A model generated the notes under the pieces. The model saw only the letters and a program-made list of their open reading frames with translations. It was not told the origin of the DNA and did not search any database. From positions 1-30,625 of IMG/VR virus record IMGVR_UViG_3300030090_003403: a DNA stretch of 30,625 bases; one strand, given 5' to 3'. This DNA comes from a virus. Position 1 is the first letter of the stretch. Each line of letters begins with the position of its first letter. The position numbers and the translations under genes are program-made. This document shows positions 4,021 through 10,879 of this stretch, one piece after another.

Positions 4021-4268
4021 TCTACTCTACGTACCCATACTTCATCTTCTTTAACAATGGTCTGATATTTTCTATCTTCCCCCTTTTCTCGCATTAGATA
4101 AGCGTCATTTACGACACTATGTCTTATACGTAGACCATTTGCTTTGTTGTCGCTAGGGATAGCGATTGCACTACCAATCGCTAAACCCCTAACTTCTTTC
4201 ATAAAGTCTTGCTGACCTGTTATTTTTTTATACTCTTTATTAAACTCTGCGTTATTAAGCACTCGCAT
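4017..4268 (-). CDS. 83-aa hypothetical protein
   Basis: ATG at 4268 (MRVLNNAEFNKEYKK) is preferred over the TTG at 4277. The frame lies inside the coupled operon, overlapping the 3' end of the upstream gene, and its stop overlaps the next ATG. The protein is charged, with a central segment GLAIGSAIAIPSD and a beta-rich end (YQTIVKEDEVWVRRVE). There are no recognisable motifs. Its place between a probable annealing protein and the initiator suggests an accessory replication or recombination role, but that is only guilt by association. Confidence 0.6.
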   Translation of the reverse strand: MRVLNNAEFNKEYKKITGQQDFMKEVRGLAIGSAIAIPSDNKANGLRIRHSVVNDAYLMREKGEDRKYQTIVKEDEVWVRRVE

Positions 4269-5055
4269 TTTCTTCAATACCTTTCACTATCTCATTTTTA
4301 AGTTCTTGACTTGCGTCATCTAACGACAGTATCCAATTAAGGTAACTCAAACCTTTTTGTACACCTGACTTTTCGTCTAGCGTAGGATCGTCAAGCACCT
4401 CTGCAATAGTTCTGCCTTTAACAAACGCCCCAAACCTAACAAAGATGAGTTCGCCGTTAGAGTTTCTATCCATTTCCATTGGTATTTCTCCGCCTGGGAT
4501 GTTGTCAGGGGATACACTTTTTGCCTCTTTCCCCGTCATCTGTTGCGTTACTTCCTTAACCATGTTTACTGTTTCTGATAAAGTGTTTCCGCTCTCAGTC
4601 TGCTCAGCAACTTTTGGGGAAGAACTTTTTACTAAGTCATCATCTTGGCTAAACAATCCGTGAGATGATGTAGCGTATCTAACCCCCATAACGTAAGCAC
4701 GTTTGTATGCCATAGCAATACCTCTTTGTCTTGCACCCGCTCTATTTCCCAACATTTCCCCACTATCCCATGTGCCTACACCAACACAATGTCTGTCAGC
4801 AGTATTCCTGTCTAACATATCAATTGTTACTGTAATCTGACTTTGCCCGTCAACCTGTACCTCACTTACATCTGACATAATGCCGTCTATTTCAAAGACA
4901 TCAGCAAGTAAACTTGCTCCATTTAACCACAAGAAATCACTTGTAGCACCTTGTATCTTGCCGTAATGCACACCCTCTTTCATGAGTTCCTGTTTAATTT
5001 CAGTTGCTCTTTCTAGTTTGGTTTGTATTTTTTCTTCTTCATTTTTATTTGTCAT
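4255..5055 (-). CDS. Putative single-strand annealing protein (ERF/Rad52-like), 266 aa
   Basis: The segment ARQRGIAMAYKRAYVMGVRY followed by ATSSHGLFSQDDD resembles the alpha-helix plus acidic tail of phage single-strand annealing proteins (ERF/Sak/Rad52-like), where an Ala-rich basic helix is followed by a DDD-type motif. Upstream, TVTIDMLDRNTADRHCVGVG looks like the beta strands of such a fold. The C-terminal part is acidic and flexible, as in many of these proteins, where it contacts SSB. The ATG at 5055 has a strong site (AAGGAG). Association with a resolvase-like nuclease and replication genes supports recombination, but the fold assignment is by eye. Confidence 0.5.
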   Translation of the reverse strand: MTNKNEEEKIQTKLERATEIKQELMKEGVHYGKIQGATSDFLWLNGASLLADVFEIDGIMSDVSEVQVDGQSQITVTIDMLDRNTADRHCVGVGTWDSGEMLGNRAGARQRGIAMAYKRAYVMGVRYATSSHGLFSQDDDLVKSSSPKVAEQTESGNTLSETVNMVKEVTQQMTGKEAKSVSPDNIPGGEIPMEMDRNSNGELIFVRFGAFVKGRTIAEVLDDPTLDEKSGVQKGLSYLNWILSLDDASQELKNEIVKGIEENASA

Positions 5056-5478: not shown

Positions 5479-5742
5479 TTACACTCCTTTCCATTTCTTT
5501 CTAAGGATTTCTACACCCTCTTTTTTATTGAACTCTTCTACACTCATTGTGCTTGTAAGATGACTACCCAATACTCTGATGTCATACACAATTGTTTGTA
5601 ATGCCTCACGTATAGATAAAGGTAACTCGTACGCTATTTCTATGTCCGTATCTTTGAGTGCATTATTAACCTCATCTATGAGTTCCCAATCGCCCAACTC
5701 TATTATGTCGTTGACAACTGCGTCTTTCCACTCATTACTCAT
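5479..5742 (-). CDS. 87-aa acidic hypothetical protein
   Basis: ATG at 5742 lies 8 nt inside the end of the upstream gene. The product is acidic and helical (WKDAVVNDIIELGDWELIDEV...), with a short basic end KKWKGV and no cysteines. It ends just before the ribosome-binding site of the next gene. Operon position and frame integrity support a real gene. Size, charge and lack of motifs would fit a small protein-protein adaptor or inhibitor, but no function can be assigned. Confidence 0.6.
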   Translation of the reverse strand: MSNEWKDAVVNDIIELGDWELIDEVNNALKDTDIEIAYELPLSIREALQTIVYDIRVLGSHLTSTMSVEEFNKKEGVEILRKKWKGV

Positions 5743-6247
5743 CTTTGTCTAGCCCCTCTCTTATGTCTTTGACAATGCCTGACAACGCCTCTATCATTCC
5801 GTATCTTCTTGTCCAACTCGCCAACTCACTCTTGGCTTGTAGTATAAGACTTTCGTGTATGTCAGGTGTAGTAGTAATGACTGTCTTGTCTGTGTACGCT
5901 CGTCCATTTTCCGTCGGCACACTAAGTAAGTGCATACTTGCAATCTCATTGTCCCACTTGTCTACGTTAATAGTGATTATGTTCCCTAATATACTTCTTG
6001 CTATTTGCAGTCTGTACTTGTGTGCGTACTCCTCTGAAGTATCGGAAAAACATTCTCCTAGTGGACTTTTTGGATTGTGATAGCTTTCTTCAACAACCAT
6101 TTCAGGTGTAATAAACCCGCCATTTTTGTTCCTGATTTTTTCTATATGTAGTGCTATCTTGCCTACATCTAGTTTGTTTATACCCTCTTGGCTAAGTACG
6201 ATATTACTTTTCCATTGGTACGTGTTTTTAGTTTTAGTTTTTGGCAT
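5735..6247 (-). CDS. 170-aa conserved-type phage hypothetical protein
   Basis: First gene after the 6285-6313 promoter. The ATG at 6247 follows a purine-rich AAAGGGGG site. The middle has a pattern I associate with an uncharacterised phage/prophage family: an ITPEMVVEESYHNPKSPLGE segment, an acidic stretch, then YAHKYRLQIARSIL, and a C-terminal helix ending ELASWTRRYGMIEAL. In such proteins the segments look like a small winged or helical domain followed by a long helix; their role is unknown to me. A DNA-binding or regulatory role is plausible as the opening gene of a replication operon. Confidence 0.65.
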   Translation of the reverse strand: MPKTKTKNTYQWKSNIVLSQEGINKLDVGKIALHIEKIRNKNGGFITPEMVVEESYHNPKSPLGECFSDTSEEYAHKYRLQIARSILGNIITINVDKWDNEIASMHLLSVPTENGRAYTDKTVITTTPDIHESLILQAKSELASWTRRYGMIEALSGIVKDIREGLDKDE

Positions 6248-6313: not shown

Positions 6314-6325
6314 TCCATATCTAAG

Positions 6326-7021
6326 CTGACTTATCTTACCAAAACATAACAGATCGGATACCTAACTCAACATAAATTGCCTTACCTAGTCTGCCCTTTC
6401 TTAACTCGCCTCTCCTAAAGATACCCAAACATTTCCCACCTCAACGGATCTGACAAAACTAACCAATCCCAAACGTAACGGAACAATATGCGACGTAACC
6501 CGACTGACTGGACGTAACGTAACGTTACTAAACAAAACACATCTGACGAAACTTACCTTAACGTGCCTGAACGATTGCTTGACTAAACTCGTCGCACCAT
6601 GACTGACATAACCTTACTAAACCTATTAAGAACGGAACTAAACAGAACACATCTGACATATCTTACCACAATCGTATACACGAACATAACATGACTGAAC
6701 CCATCTGCTTTGCCGTAACTGAACTCGCCCCACCATAGCGATACGTAACGTAACGGGGAGTACCTATACTAGCAATACCTAACCATACGTAATCTGACAA
6801 AACGAAACTAAACCTTACAGAACGGATCTAAACAGATCGCTACTGACAATCCATGACTTTCCAATACCTAAGCCCAACCCAACTCATCTTAACCGAACGT
6901 ATCTCGCCACATCTGACAATACAGATCATAACCGAACACACAACCAACGAAACCCAACCTGTCTGACGGAACACAACTTACCTGAACCCTTACCAACGTA
7001 TCCCATCATATCTTATCTGAC
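6326..7021 (-). repeat. Degenerate pentamer array with GTCA register resets
   Basis: On the minus strand this reads as successive pentamers beginning with G, mostly G(T/A)(T/A)NN, e.g. GTTTA GATCC GTTCT. Hand placement of the phased base (C on the plus strand) gives about 104 steps of exactly 5 nt over some 690 bp. The longest unbroken runs are 6798-6843 (nine steps), 6714-6754 and 6873-6913 (eight each). The last two bases of each unit are highly variable, so it is not a conventional tandem repeat. The register slips by one base at eleven GTCA tetramers (CTGAC on the plus strand: ends at 6330, 6454, 6508, 6547, 6607, 6657, 6798, 6847, 6917, 6967, 7021). A few 4- or 6-nt units also occur. The plus strand is C-rich and G-poor. 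Function unknown; candidates are a multimeric-protein binding RNA, a single-strand binding platform or an origin. Confidence 0.9.
7001..7019. repeat. 19-bp direct repeat, copy 1 (array edge)
   Basis: TCCCATCATATCTTATCTG is the last part of the pentamer array, including the C that precedes the final TGAC. An exact second copy lies at 7227-7245, 226 bp away. Here it continues as ACATATG. Confidence 0.9.
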
Positions 7022-7226: not shown

Positions 7227-7245
7227 TCCCATCATATCTTATCTG
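7227..7245. repeat. 19-bp direct repeat, copy 2 (detached)
   Basis: An exact copy of 7001-7019, here followed by CCGAGAG rather than ACATATG. It shares the array's 5-nt spacing of C residues and looks like a detached array fragment or a second binding site. It sits 11 bp from the hairpin at 7256-7292. Confidence 0.9.
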
Positions 7246-7299: not shown

Positions 7300-8046
7300 C
7301 TATACTTTTTTGCTTTTAGTGTGCAAGTCAATATTTTTCATAATTTTATCAACTTGTTCCTTGGTTGGTGCAACGGGAGATACCTCAAATGTACCATTGT
7401 CCCCGTTCTTTTCTGGTCTATGCTCACATAAACCAACACCAAATCCCGCCCTCATAAGCAAGTGTGTGATTGCCTCTTGCGAGATCAAATCTTCATCAAA
7501 CTGTATGGGTACAGTAATTCTCCACCCAACAGGATATGCTGGACGATACCTCAAATCAGTTGCCCCCTTGCTCAATCTTACTGTGTCCGTCCTCATGTAC
7601 GGCTCTACGTCCTCAACTGCTAGATACTCTTGAGGTATAAATACCATACCTCTCATTTCTGTCATAGCAATACTTTCCACTTGTCTACAAGCGTTGACCA
7701 TAGCTTTCTTAAGACCGATTGCCTTGATACCCGTAGAGTATCCGTCCCAATCTTTAGGTTTCTCCCAAGCGTCTGTGCCACCTTTACCTACCCTGTAAAA
7801 ACTATCTTCGTATTCCTTGATTGGATTACGTTTTGGTTTAGCCGTCTTAACTTTCTTTGCTTGTTTGTCAGCAATCTCTTTTCTAGATTTCTCGCTGAAC
7901 CTATGCACAATCAGTTCTGACGTACCAATGATGTTTACTAGAGCAATCTTGATTTTAGGTTTAGGAATGTCTACCCCAACCCTCATTTCTACACTCTCGT
8001 CTAGTATTTCGGGAGTGATTTTGTTGTTTGTACTTGTTGTCGCCAT
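7300..8046 (-). CDS. 248-aa phage protein of unknown function next to the array
   Basis: ATG at 8046 (MATTSTNNKITPE) has a strong AAGGAG site and is chosen over an in-frame TTG at 8067. Recognisable stretches are VNIIGTSELIVHRFSEKSRK with KQAKKVK after it, then DTVRLSKGATDLRYRPAYP, and a glycine-rich segment AGFGVGLCEHRPEKNGDNG followed by TFEV. I recall similar patterns (LIVHRWSEK..., AG...GIG.WRP...G.F.V) in uncharacterised phage and prophage proteins. The Gly-rich loop before a beta strand faintly recalls RAMP-type RNA-binding folds, but this is speculation. It follows the CobT-like gene with a 29-bp gap and is the last gene before the pentamer array, so it probably belongs to the ATPase/VWA operon. 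Confidence 0.75.
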   Translation of the reverse strand: MATTSTNNKITPEILDESVEMRVGVDIPKPKIKIALVNIIGTSELIVHRFSEKSRKEIADKQAKKVKTAKPKRNPIKEYEDSFYRVGKGGTDAWEKPKDWDGYSTGIKAIGLKKAMVNACRQVESIAMTEMRGMVFIPQEYLAVEDVEPYMRTDTVRLSKGATDLRYRPAYPVGWRITVPIQFDEDLISQEAITHLLMRAGFGVGLCEHRPEKNGDNGTFEVSPVAPTKEQVDKIMKNIDLHTKSKKV

Positions 8047-8075
8047 AGTTTTCTCCTTACTTCGCAACTTATTTT

Positions 8076-9941
8076 TTAAAAAGTTTGTCCTATTCTTGCA
8101 ATTGCGTCGCCCACTAATTGCATTTTAGACACGTTGTCTAGTTGTACTGCCACATCACTAGGATAATACTCCTGATTTGCGTAACCACCAACTAAGACAG
8201 AAACGAAACGCAAACCTTGATCGTATAACCTATGGGATACACTTTTTGTATGATGATGAAGATGTCTATGCGACATAGGGGACGGACTTGCAGGAGAGCC
8301 GTCAGATATAATAACTGCCAAACTATCTTGCATTTGCCCCTGTGTCATTTGTTCCATAAACATCAACGCCGAACAATCTGTGTTCCCCCCATATTCAAAC
8401 CCCGAACGCCTAGCACTATCTCCCAAATAGTGTCCGTTTGGAATTTCATAAATAAAGCATTGTCTATCGCTTGAATTGAAAGCAAATGTTTTGCTCATGG
8501 GAAATACCTCTGATATCGCAGTTGCAACTTGGAAAGCGTCGTATCCTGTTGTTCCCTCGTTATCAGCGTGTCCCATAGAACCTGATACATCAACTAAAAT
8601 CATTAGTTCTCCCCTTTTTGACGGGGACTTACCAAACACTTTAGTATCTCCAAACTTACTCATCTTCCATACATTACTCGTAGGAATACCATATCTGTTA
8701 AGCCTAGACACGCCATTCCTCTCAACATCATTGAGCAAGTTAACTGTATGTGCGTTTAGAACCACGGGATCACATGGGTAAGAGCGAACAAGAACTGTAT
8801 GATCTTCTTCGTCGCCGTCAAAACTTTCCATTTTGATAACCTCTTCTTTTCTCTTATCATGCTTGTCCTTGGCATAAATACTACCCCCGTATATCTTCTT
8901 ATCGGTTTCTTCAAGTTCAAATGCCTCGTCCCATGCACTCTGTATCATGTCGTTGAAACTTGTTCCACTAATGTTTACGTCATAATGTGTTTGCCAACTA
9001 TCATGTATTCCACCCTCTTTGGATTTACTGTTCCCGTCTTTGCCTGTACCACCCCCACTCTCGTCATCACTTGGTGTTGTGTCTGCACCATCTCCGTCTA
9101 TTCCTACATCTCTCACAGGTAAATCTGACATCATGTGAACTATGGATATTGCAAAATCAATTGTTTCAGAAATGATTTCTTTTACGTTACCATCACGACT
9201 TAAGCTCTTGAACCTATCAATGTGCTTGTCAATCGCTTGATTAATCTGTTCCCATTGTTCCTTACTGAACGTCCAATCATCATGCAACCCACCCATGTTA
9301 AATGTGTTTTCATCTGTTTGCTTACCATTAAGCAACCTGTTCATCAATGCGTGATAGACGTGTTTAGAACCCCAACCCCACATATGATCGTTCTTGTGAT
9401 TAGGATCTTTTTCAATATGCTCTAATCCTTTTCTAAGAGATATTTCGCTCTCCGTAACGCAAGTTGTACGATAGTACCTAGCGTCAGCAATACTTGAACA
9501 TCTAAGAGTATCTATCGCATTGAACACAGGATTACCCAAACTTGTAACCCACCACCTGATCTCACTCGCTTTTCTTTGCTGATTGACATATTCCTCGTTT
9601 TTTCTTTCGTCGTCTGTCAATTGATATTCTCCCTTAACAACCTCATTCAGATATTGATTGACCACATCTGAAATAACCTTAACGGCTCTTGTAGGGGGCA
9701 ATTCACTTTCCCCACGTATGCCTGATACAAGAGATATTTCAAAGGGATCAGATACGTGTCTGTACACCTCTTCTCTCCCGTAGTTACCATGCCCACTATC
9801 ATCAGTAATGAAAGCACCTTTCAATGCTTTCACACCTCTTGTGCTTTTTACAGTAACTTTACGCCCTGTACCGAAACTTAGTAATGCACTATGATCGTTA
9901 GACCTAGGATCAGACTTCCATGTCTTTCTTCTTCTAGCCAT
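8076..9941 (-). CDS. CobT-like von Willebrand factor A (VWA) protein, 621 aa
   Basis: The C-terminal 180 residues form a VWA domain with an intact MIDAS: DVSGSMG (Asp451, Ser453, Ser455), GGNTDCSAL (Thr521, Asp522) and ISDGSP (Asp547). The N-terminal 270 residues are mostly helical and unassigned. A Gly/Asp/Ser/Lys-rich linker (about 276-311) separates the two parts, as in cobaltochelatase CobT. The partner AAA+ ATPase lies directly upstream and overlaps it (TAATG), the classical MoxR/CobS plus VWA pairing, in which the ATPase remodels a substrate recruited by the VWA protein. Such pairs are known in phage genomes but their target is not established. No other cobalamin genes are present, so chelation is unlikely. 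Confidence 0.85.
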   Translation of the reverse strand: MARRRKTWKSDPRSNDHSALLSFGTGRKVTVKSTRGVKALKGAFITDDSGHGNYGREEVYRHVSDPFEISLVSGIRGESELPPTRAVKVISDVVNQYLNEVVKGEYQLTDDERKNEEYVNQQRKASEIRWWVTSLGNPVFNAIDTLRCSSIADARYYRTTCVTESEISLRKGLEHIEKDPNHKNDHMWGWGSKHVYHALMNRLLNGKQTDENTFNMGGLHDDWTFSKEQWEQINQAIDKHIDRFKSLSRDGNVKEIISETIDFAISIVHMMSDLPVRDVGIDGDGADTTPSDDESGGGTGKDGNSKSKEGGIHDSWQTHYDVNISGTSFNDMIQSAWDEAFELEETDKKIYGGSIYAKDKHDKRKEEVIKMESFDGDEEDHTVLVRSYPCDPVVLNAHTVNLLNDVERNGVSRLNRYGIPTSNVWKMSKFGDTKVFGKSPSKRGELMILVDVSGSMGHADNEGTTGYDAFQVATAISEVFPMSKTFAFNSSDRQCFIYEIPNGHYLGDSARRSGFEYGGNTDCSALMFMEQMTQGQMQDSLAVIISDGSPASPSPMSHRHLHHHTKSVSHRLYDQGLRFVSVLVGGYANQEYYPSDVAVQLDNVSKMQLVGDAIARIGQTF

Positions 9942-10879
9942 TATACGTTCTCCTCTACTACGCTATCTAAATCTTTGACATCAAACTCCTCAAAGTATGC
10001 TCTTGCTTGTGTAAGTATGGCACTATCATTACCCTCGTACTTTGGCATAAGCACAGTTTCACACACTCTCTTGGGATCAATACCTCTCTTGATTGCTTTC
10101 GCAAAGAAATGTAAATCTCTTGTAGACAAGTAAGTGTTTTTATCTTTCCGACACGCATCTGCGAAATTCATTATTCGGTCAACCAATTTCTCATTTTCTA
10201 GCGTATCCATCAAAGCGTGTCTTTCATCTGCTAACGGCTCGTCAATCCTTAGAACCCCTGCGAACCTAGACATACTTGCTTTGTCCTCTCTCATAGTACC
10301 TGTGTACCCATTACCCGTTGGATTGGCACTAGCCACAATCACAGTCTGCTTAGGTACGTGTATGTCTTTAGTACCATTCTCAAACAAGTTCCATGATCTG
10401 TTACGACTATCAAGAATACCGAACAATCTTGATTTCAATTCAGGATTGGCTCTTGTGTATTCCTCAATACGTATGATTGCACCATTCCTGATACCCTCTG
10501 ACAGAACTCCGTCTTGCCAAGTAATCTCTCCCGACGCCGTTGGACGCCATATCCCAATCAATTGTGCTATATCCATACCTGTATAGCAGTTGAAACCAAC
10601 GCTATCTCGCTTTAGTTTCTTGGCTATCATTTCAAGTATCACAGTCTTACCCATACCTGTACCACCAATCAATAGCGTAGGATCACTTTCTTCTATGTAT
10701 CCCTCAAGTTCCTGTGCAATCTGTTCGCCAAACTTACTTAGCTTGAACCAAGTGGGTAACCCGTCTACCTTAGCTTTCACTTTCTTAATTTCTTTTTTTG
10801 TTTCTTTGTTTGTAGATTTAGCGTTTGCGACTACGCTTTGTAATAGCTTTGCTAAATCTGTATCACTAATCTCGCTCAT
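9941..10879 (-). CDS. CobS/MoxR-like AAA+ ATPase, 312 aa
   Basis: A single AAA+ module: Walker A GGTGMGKT (72-79), Walker B AIIRIEE (134-140), sensor-1 SANPTGNG with Asn187, and an arginine in SRFAGVLRID (about 205). This arrangement is that of the MoxR/CobS clade. The N-terminus (1-40) is a charged helix. The start has a GAGGAT site and overlaps the stop of the upstream 241-aa gene (ATGA); its own stop overlaps the VWA gene. Together they probably form a chaperone-like complex in the cytoplasm. It may act in replication, virion maturation or host takeover; the sequence does not say which. Confidence 0.87.
   Translation of the reverse strand: MSEISDTDLAKLLQSVVANAKSTNKETKKEIKKVKAKVDGLPTWFKLSKFGEQIAQELEGYIEESDPTLLIGGTGMGKTVILEMIAKKLKRDSVGFNCYTGMDIAQLIGIWRPTASGEITWQDGVLSEGIRNGAIIRIEEYTRANPELKSRLFGILDSRNRSWNLFENGTKDIHVPKQTVIVASANPTGNGYTGTMREDKASMSRFAGVLRIDEPLADERHALMDTLENEKLVDRIMNFADACRKDKNTYLSTRDLHFFAKAIKRGIDPKRVCETVLMPKYEGNDSAILTQARAYFEEFDVKDLDSVVEENV

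Follow-up and report, generated by a model that had tools for sequence, protein, structure and literature searches.

What kind of signal can hold a 5-nt period over some 700 nucleotides while its units differ from one another? The question is raised by the minus strand of a viral sequence (IMG/VR record IMGVR_UViG_3300030090_003403, of which positions 1 to 30,625, a stretch of 30,625 nucleotides, are called the window here), where G(T/A)(T/A)NN pentamers, about 134 in all, run from 7021 down to 6321. An earlier note, made from the letters alone, had placed this array at 6326-7021, an extent that holds, and had proposed autocorrelation against shuffled sequence. Within 6326-7021, identity at lags of 5, 10, and 15 nt reaches 309, 289, and 269 matches, against means of 194, 193, and 191 in 1,000 dinucleotide-preserving shuffles of the same region, and all three values lie above the shuffle maxima (233, 227, and 235; z = 9.4, 8.1, and 6.8). 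The 5-nt period is therefore real, and the pentamer-array score of 93 compares with at most 15 in 200 Markov-1 samples.

Base use over the 134 units has the same shape. The first position is G at a frequency of 0.80, which corresponds to about 107 G-initial units and comes near the 104 or so steps that the note had counted by hand. The second position is mostly T (0.58, with G 0.19 and A 0.17), as is the third (T 0.66, A 0.18), and positions 4 and 5 are almost unconstrained, in agreement with the near-free last two bases described before. That the array is non-coding and no tandem repeat in the usual sense was likewise judged correctly: 6321-7021 contains no ORF of at least 50 amino acids. The array matched no known family in Rfam, and its strand does not fold better than shuffled sequence (z +1.49).

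What the earlier note overlooked is that the array is punctuated and modular. The main slips in the period are indeed contractions, and each consists of a tetramer, GTCA or sometimes GGCA, in place of a pentamer. These tetramers lie at 7021, 6967, 6917, 6847, 6798, 6657, 6607, 6547, 6508, 6454, and 6330, spaced about 40 to 60 nt apart where they are regular, and between them lie about a dozen modules, each some 10 pentamers long. The 2 cleanest modules have exactly 10 units between GTCA tetramers, and the other modules vary. The first of these, module 1 (7017-6968, minus strand), carries the NN pairs AA AT GG AC GG GG CA AA GT CC, and the second, module 6504 (6504-6455, minus strand), carries GG AC GC TT CC AC TG TT TA TT. 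Also overlooked was that the first part of module 1 (GATAA GATAT GATGG GA) recurs on the minus strand between the array and the next gene, where 7227-7245 repeats 7001-7019 exactly over 19 nt; this copy is perhaps a relic of guide duplication or a leader copy. Modules 6843-6799 and 6653-6609 share the NN run CT TA CC CT over differing skeletons (GATCT versus GTTCT, GATCC versus GTTCC), so that the skeleton has drifted under an unchanged NN code, as would be expected of guides. Neither Rfam nor folding against shuffles revealed a structured 3' tail between the modules of the window.

The gene beside the array (7300-8067, minus strand) offers an answer to what the modules are. It encodes 255 amino acids from a TTG start, with an ATG at 8046. 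A profile of its product matched the Vipr protein of Escherichia phage SUSP1 (PDB 36pp) with an E value of 2e-39 and Csm5 weakly, and hhalign against SUSP1 Vipr gave a probability of 99.8% (E 3e-29). An AlphaFold2 model (pLDDT 84) found its best Foldseek matches among the Csm3/Cas7 backbone proteins of type III and type VII CRISPR complexes. Residues G208, G212, R217, and G225 are invariant in the Vipr homologs, the invariant glycines falling in a C-terminal loop. Judged by sequence profile and predicted fold, the product is a Vipr/RAMP (Cas7-like) protein of the ancestral type.

VIPR (Viral Interference Programmable Repeat) is described in a 2026 preprint (PMC13142463) as a phage-encoded ancestral RAMP protein, of a single domain with an RRM core and a glycine-rich loop, with vrRNAs in which GGY alternates with NN. 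A guide comprises 9 to 16 units of a conserved triplet alternating with hypervariable NN, the triplet being GGY "or a related consensus"; array architectures vary by type, staggered arrays are mentioned, and a structured 3' tail on each vrRNA is given as a feature of the SUSP1 clade (PMC13142463). The vrRNAs bind double-stranded DNA through their NN pairs with one base skipped, mostly at the codon wobble position, and competing elements are repressed (PMC13142463).

The profile match to Vipr, together with the predicted Cas7/Csm3 fold, identifies the array locus as a VIPR system. Our reading, to which we give a probability of about 0.93, is that the array encodes the guide RNAs (vrRNAs) of this system, that its modules of about 10 pentamers are guides, and that at least 2 of them are aimed at C5 methyltransferase genes. 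By analogy with SUSP1, the minus-strand transcript would be cut into guides, one for each module set off by GTCA, and the Cas7-like Vipr would oligomerize on the RNA with one subunit per pentamer. Vipr would hold the G-W-W skeleton and expose the NN pairs, which would pair with double-stranded DNA in a pattern of two bases read and one skipped, and the complex would repress transcription of the matched gene. The targets of at least 2 guides would be conserved motifs in C5 cytosine DNA methyltransferase genes, read on opposite strands. For the window phage we infer RNA processing, Vipr-RNA binding and RNP assembly, DNA binding, and repression from the SUSP1 system. Of the single-stranded RNA or DNA favored by the earlier note, single-stranded RNA from the minus strand is the best reading.

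Similar arrays occur in other viruses. A scan of 2.9 million viral contigs (IMG/VR) for GTTNN runs, followed by a scoring script for degenerate arrays, recovered degenerate pentamer arrays in at least dozens of contigs, whose lengths range from about 5 to 331 kb. Almost all of the arrays occupy the mRNA-sense strand, often 0 to 70 nt past a stop codon, and 33 of the 49 arrays listed sit between two co-oriented genes. When the neighbors of the arrays were clustered blind to the genes of the window, 29 of the 33 loci selected by array (39 minus 6 set aside by hand as short or oppositely placed arrays or as AFV1) had a homolog of Vipr no more than about 600 nt from the array, and the Vipr profile matched in all 20 whole records searched. 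In the opposite direction, Vipr homologs found by protein alone in the Gordonia phages Ecliptus and UmaThurman and the Mycobacterium phage Saal adjoin pentamer arrays with the skeleton GG(C/T)NN and GGCA punctuation. The skeleton thus differs between clades, being GWW in the window, GTT in most relatives, and GGC or GGT in the Gordonia and Mycobacterium phages, while the 5-nt period is kept and NN stays free. A search for the pattern in other phages, as the note had suggested, therefore bears out the period and the variable NN but not the constancy of the skeleton.

Punctuation of 4 nt recurs as well: GGCA, GGCG, or GTCG interrupts the arrays of 5 further loci (L080, L155, L177, L179, and L132) every 10 pentamers or so, and elsewhere we observed GGCA/GGCT (L096) and ATAA (L153). 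GC-rich hairpins closely follow the arrays at L179:7660-7700, L193:6820-6870, and L132:1100-1133; those of L179 and L193 look by eye like intrinsic terminators on the sense strand of the array, and such terminator-like hairpins support transcription of the G strand. A different layout, unlike the GTCA punctuation, was seen at L205:900-2664 and L048:967-1931, where a recurring hairpin, tRNA-like by eye (a TTCGA-type T loop, with the T-loop motif on the opposite strand in L048), is interspersed between pentamer arrays. ARAGORN called no tRNA in L048, and Rfam matched nothing in L048 or L205.

In cellular genomes, at least 116 stretches matched the GTTNN pattern; one was a degenerate array and nearly all the others were simple tandem repeats, so an array cannot be called from the pattern by itself. 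BLAST matches in Bacillus phage BSP15 and Vibrio phage Aphrodite1 were discarded as simple or non-array sequence. Sequenced phages contained no direct DNA homolog of the window locus, and a single-query search of viral contigs confirmed no close protein relative of its Vipr.

If the modules are guides, the skip rule should allow their targets to be read. We applied the 1-nt skip rule to 4 modules of the window, decoded without knowledge of their targets, and searched all viral contigs for the resulting exact 18-base patterns (9 units). The matches numbered 0 for module 6913 and 1 for module 6843, but 87 for module 1 (from 7017) and 23 for module 6504. About 1 to 2 matches are expected by chance for an 18-base pattern, and the contiguous (0-skip) reading of module 1 gave 1 match in viral contigs. 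Modules 6913 and 6843 and this 0-skip reading serve as the baseline; a skip control on targets that had been chosen with one skip was excluded as circular. For module 1, 86 of the 87 matches are in frame (in the longest open frame) with the skipped base at codon position 3, and 86 contigs agree at the tenth unit as well, which the search pattern did not include. The module decodes to the codons of NMGTGGHNVP in C5 cytosine DNA methyltransferases, with target contexts that read ...LTANMGTGGHNVP... or close variants. For module 6504, 20 of the 23 matches lie antisense and in frame to YKQVGNAVP, motif X of the same enzymes. The 5 matched genes tested in Pfam are all C5 cytosine-specific DNA methylases (PF00145), and one contig (L479) carries both sites, matching 20/20 and 17/20 bases, 138 nt apart. 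Two independent guides thus converge on one enzyme family from opposite strands, and the NN pairs, which had been taken for mere spacers, carry the information of a guide.

The motif matches are spread over many phages. The breadth of module 1 among methyltransferases comes from its lying on an invariant motif and disregarding the wobble bases; the placement of the skipped base on the wobble position accounts for its matches in 86 viral contigs. It is conceivable, though we hold it to be somewhat doubtful, that module 1 acts as a broad-spectrum, mutation-tolerant silencer of the whole enzyme family on both strands and not as a guide against one competitor. The targeted methyltransferase genes most likely belong to competing phages or prophages, and satellites may be among their carriers as well; DNA cytosine methyltransferases as targets point to phage-phage or phage-restriction conflict.

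Further searches returned little. The collections searched held no convincing target of the other window modules and no single contig with exact matches to several modules, and the window guides have no self-target in the window or in the rest of the record. Searches among the contigs of the array phages themselves, with skips of 0 to 3, yielded nothing beyond chance, and guides of other loci matched methyltransferase contigs at chance level. The exact module 1 target was absent from 299 genomes of one bacterial phylum, and one exact copy was found in a Bacteroidia MAG. Targeting of tRNA genes by module 6843 was not supported, and a 19/20 match in L438, which runs from one module into the next and has its skip at codon position 1, was treated as chance. 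In 20 of 24 loci the composition of NN is closer to codon positions 1-2 than to 2-3 or 3-1, and that of the window itself is neutral, without preference for positions 1-2; this codon-like composition across the 24 loci fits the skip rule, composition by itself being weak evidence.

The most serious competing view accepts a VIPR array and holds that the methyltransferase matches are coincidental, with the true targets elsewhere. It draws on the other modules, which are without convincing targets, and on the way a conserved motif yields many matches once a single one fits. We consider it improbable, because chance gives about 1 to 2 matches (0, 1, and 1 observed) against 87 and 23, because two independent modules fall on the same family with both frame and wobble aligned, and because the tenth unit of module 1, outside the search pattern, matches in 86 contigs.

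A second view, which the earlier note had approached by analogy, is an RNA-binding array of the TRAP kind. TRAP binds RNA targets of the form (G/U)AG-NN with a 5-nt period and triplet contacts, about 11 units per particle. A ring- or filament-forming protein of this or another type would grip the GWW triplets in RNA regulation without any targeting. The array shares with TRAP targets the 5-nt period and triplet contacts and has the 3 constrained and 2 free bases, the single strand, and the modules of about 10 units that such a protein would suit, but its skeleton is GWW and the conserved neighbor is a RAMP protein, Vipr, and not TRAP. Moreover, the spacer bases of TRAP targets are uninformative, whereas the free bases here are informative, 2 modules exactly spelling conserved methyltransferase codons. 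An oligomerizing partner, as the note had supposed, is likely, and its being TRAP-like is very unlikely, more so even than coincidence. Least credible of all is a structural or replicative DNA element (origin iterons, a telomere-like end, or a packaging site) with a 5-bp period: one genome end of the archaeal virus AFV1 has degenerate GTTNN-like pentamers that score as a similar GTTNN array of 48 units (L345:25-273, AJ567472), but those stand at a genome end, whereas the arrays considered here lie inside operons, after stop codons and beside vipr, slip by contraction, and can be decoded as guides.

As a VIPR guide array, the locus is closest to the type II VIPR systems of Escherichia phage SUSP1 and a Pseudomonas fulva prophage (PMC13142463). 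It shares with them a phage-encoded Vipr RAMP homolog, adjoining pentamer arrays with hypervariable NN, and targets readable by the 1-nt skip rule with the skipped base at the wobble position. The differences are the skeleton, which is GWW/GTT instead of the GGY of the preprint's characterized systems, and the guides, which adjoin directly with GTCA/GGCA tetramers between them and lack a structured tail, whereas in the SUSP1 sequence we saw arrays of GGTNN units followed by a tail. In addition, the candidate accessory protein of the window is unrelated to SUSP1 vap1, and the decoded targets are methyltransferase genes and not a satellite. With Class 1 CRISPR effectors (the Cas7/Csm3 backbone) the locus has in common the protein fold, an RNA coated by repeated subunits, and periodic unpaired guide bases, but its period is 5 nt and not 6 nt and its guide is noncontiguous. 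A CRISPR array in the window was rejected: identical repeats with unique spacers are lacking, and no cas genes were found among the tested neighbors of the array.

The VIPR system itself is already known from the preprint (PMC13142463), and its supplementary figures may already record the GWW skeleton and tetramer layout. What the present locus adds is a member with a GWW/GTT skeleton, in a virus record of 33 kb, its tail-less layout punctuated by the 4-nt GTCA, and a natural target family that could be decoded. A metagenomic virus thereby lends independent support to the guide logic of two bases read and one skipped that was published months earlier, and extends the 1-nt skip rule to such a skeleton and layout; the exact target matches make the rule directly testable. 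Degenerate 5-nt periodicity beside PHROG 4652 proteins also provides a recipe for finding further VIPR loci.

The gene on the other side of the array (5735-6247, minus strand; 170 amino acids, PHROG 15946) is a likely candidate for a vipr accessory protein (vap) gene, since 13 of the 33 loci have a homolog next to their array; its product matched no Pfam family and had no convincing fold match among solved structures. In 8 loci (L006, L128, L184, L186, L189, L201, L218, and L221), another conserved protein of 137 to 154 amino acids occupies the accessory position and is probably another vap type. Farther out in the window, the product of 4255-5055, without PHROG or Pfam match, resembles a single-strand annealing protein by eye. 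In the region 8076-10879, a 621-amino acid protein without family matches adjoins an AAA_5 ATPase (9941-10879) that belongs to a porphyrin-biosynthesis/CobS-like PHROG.
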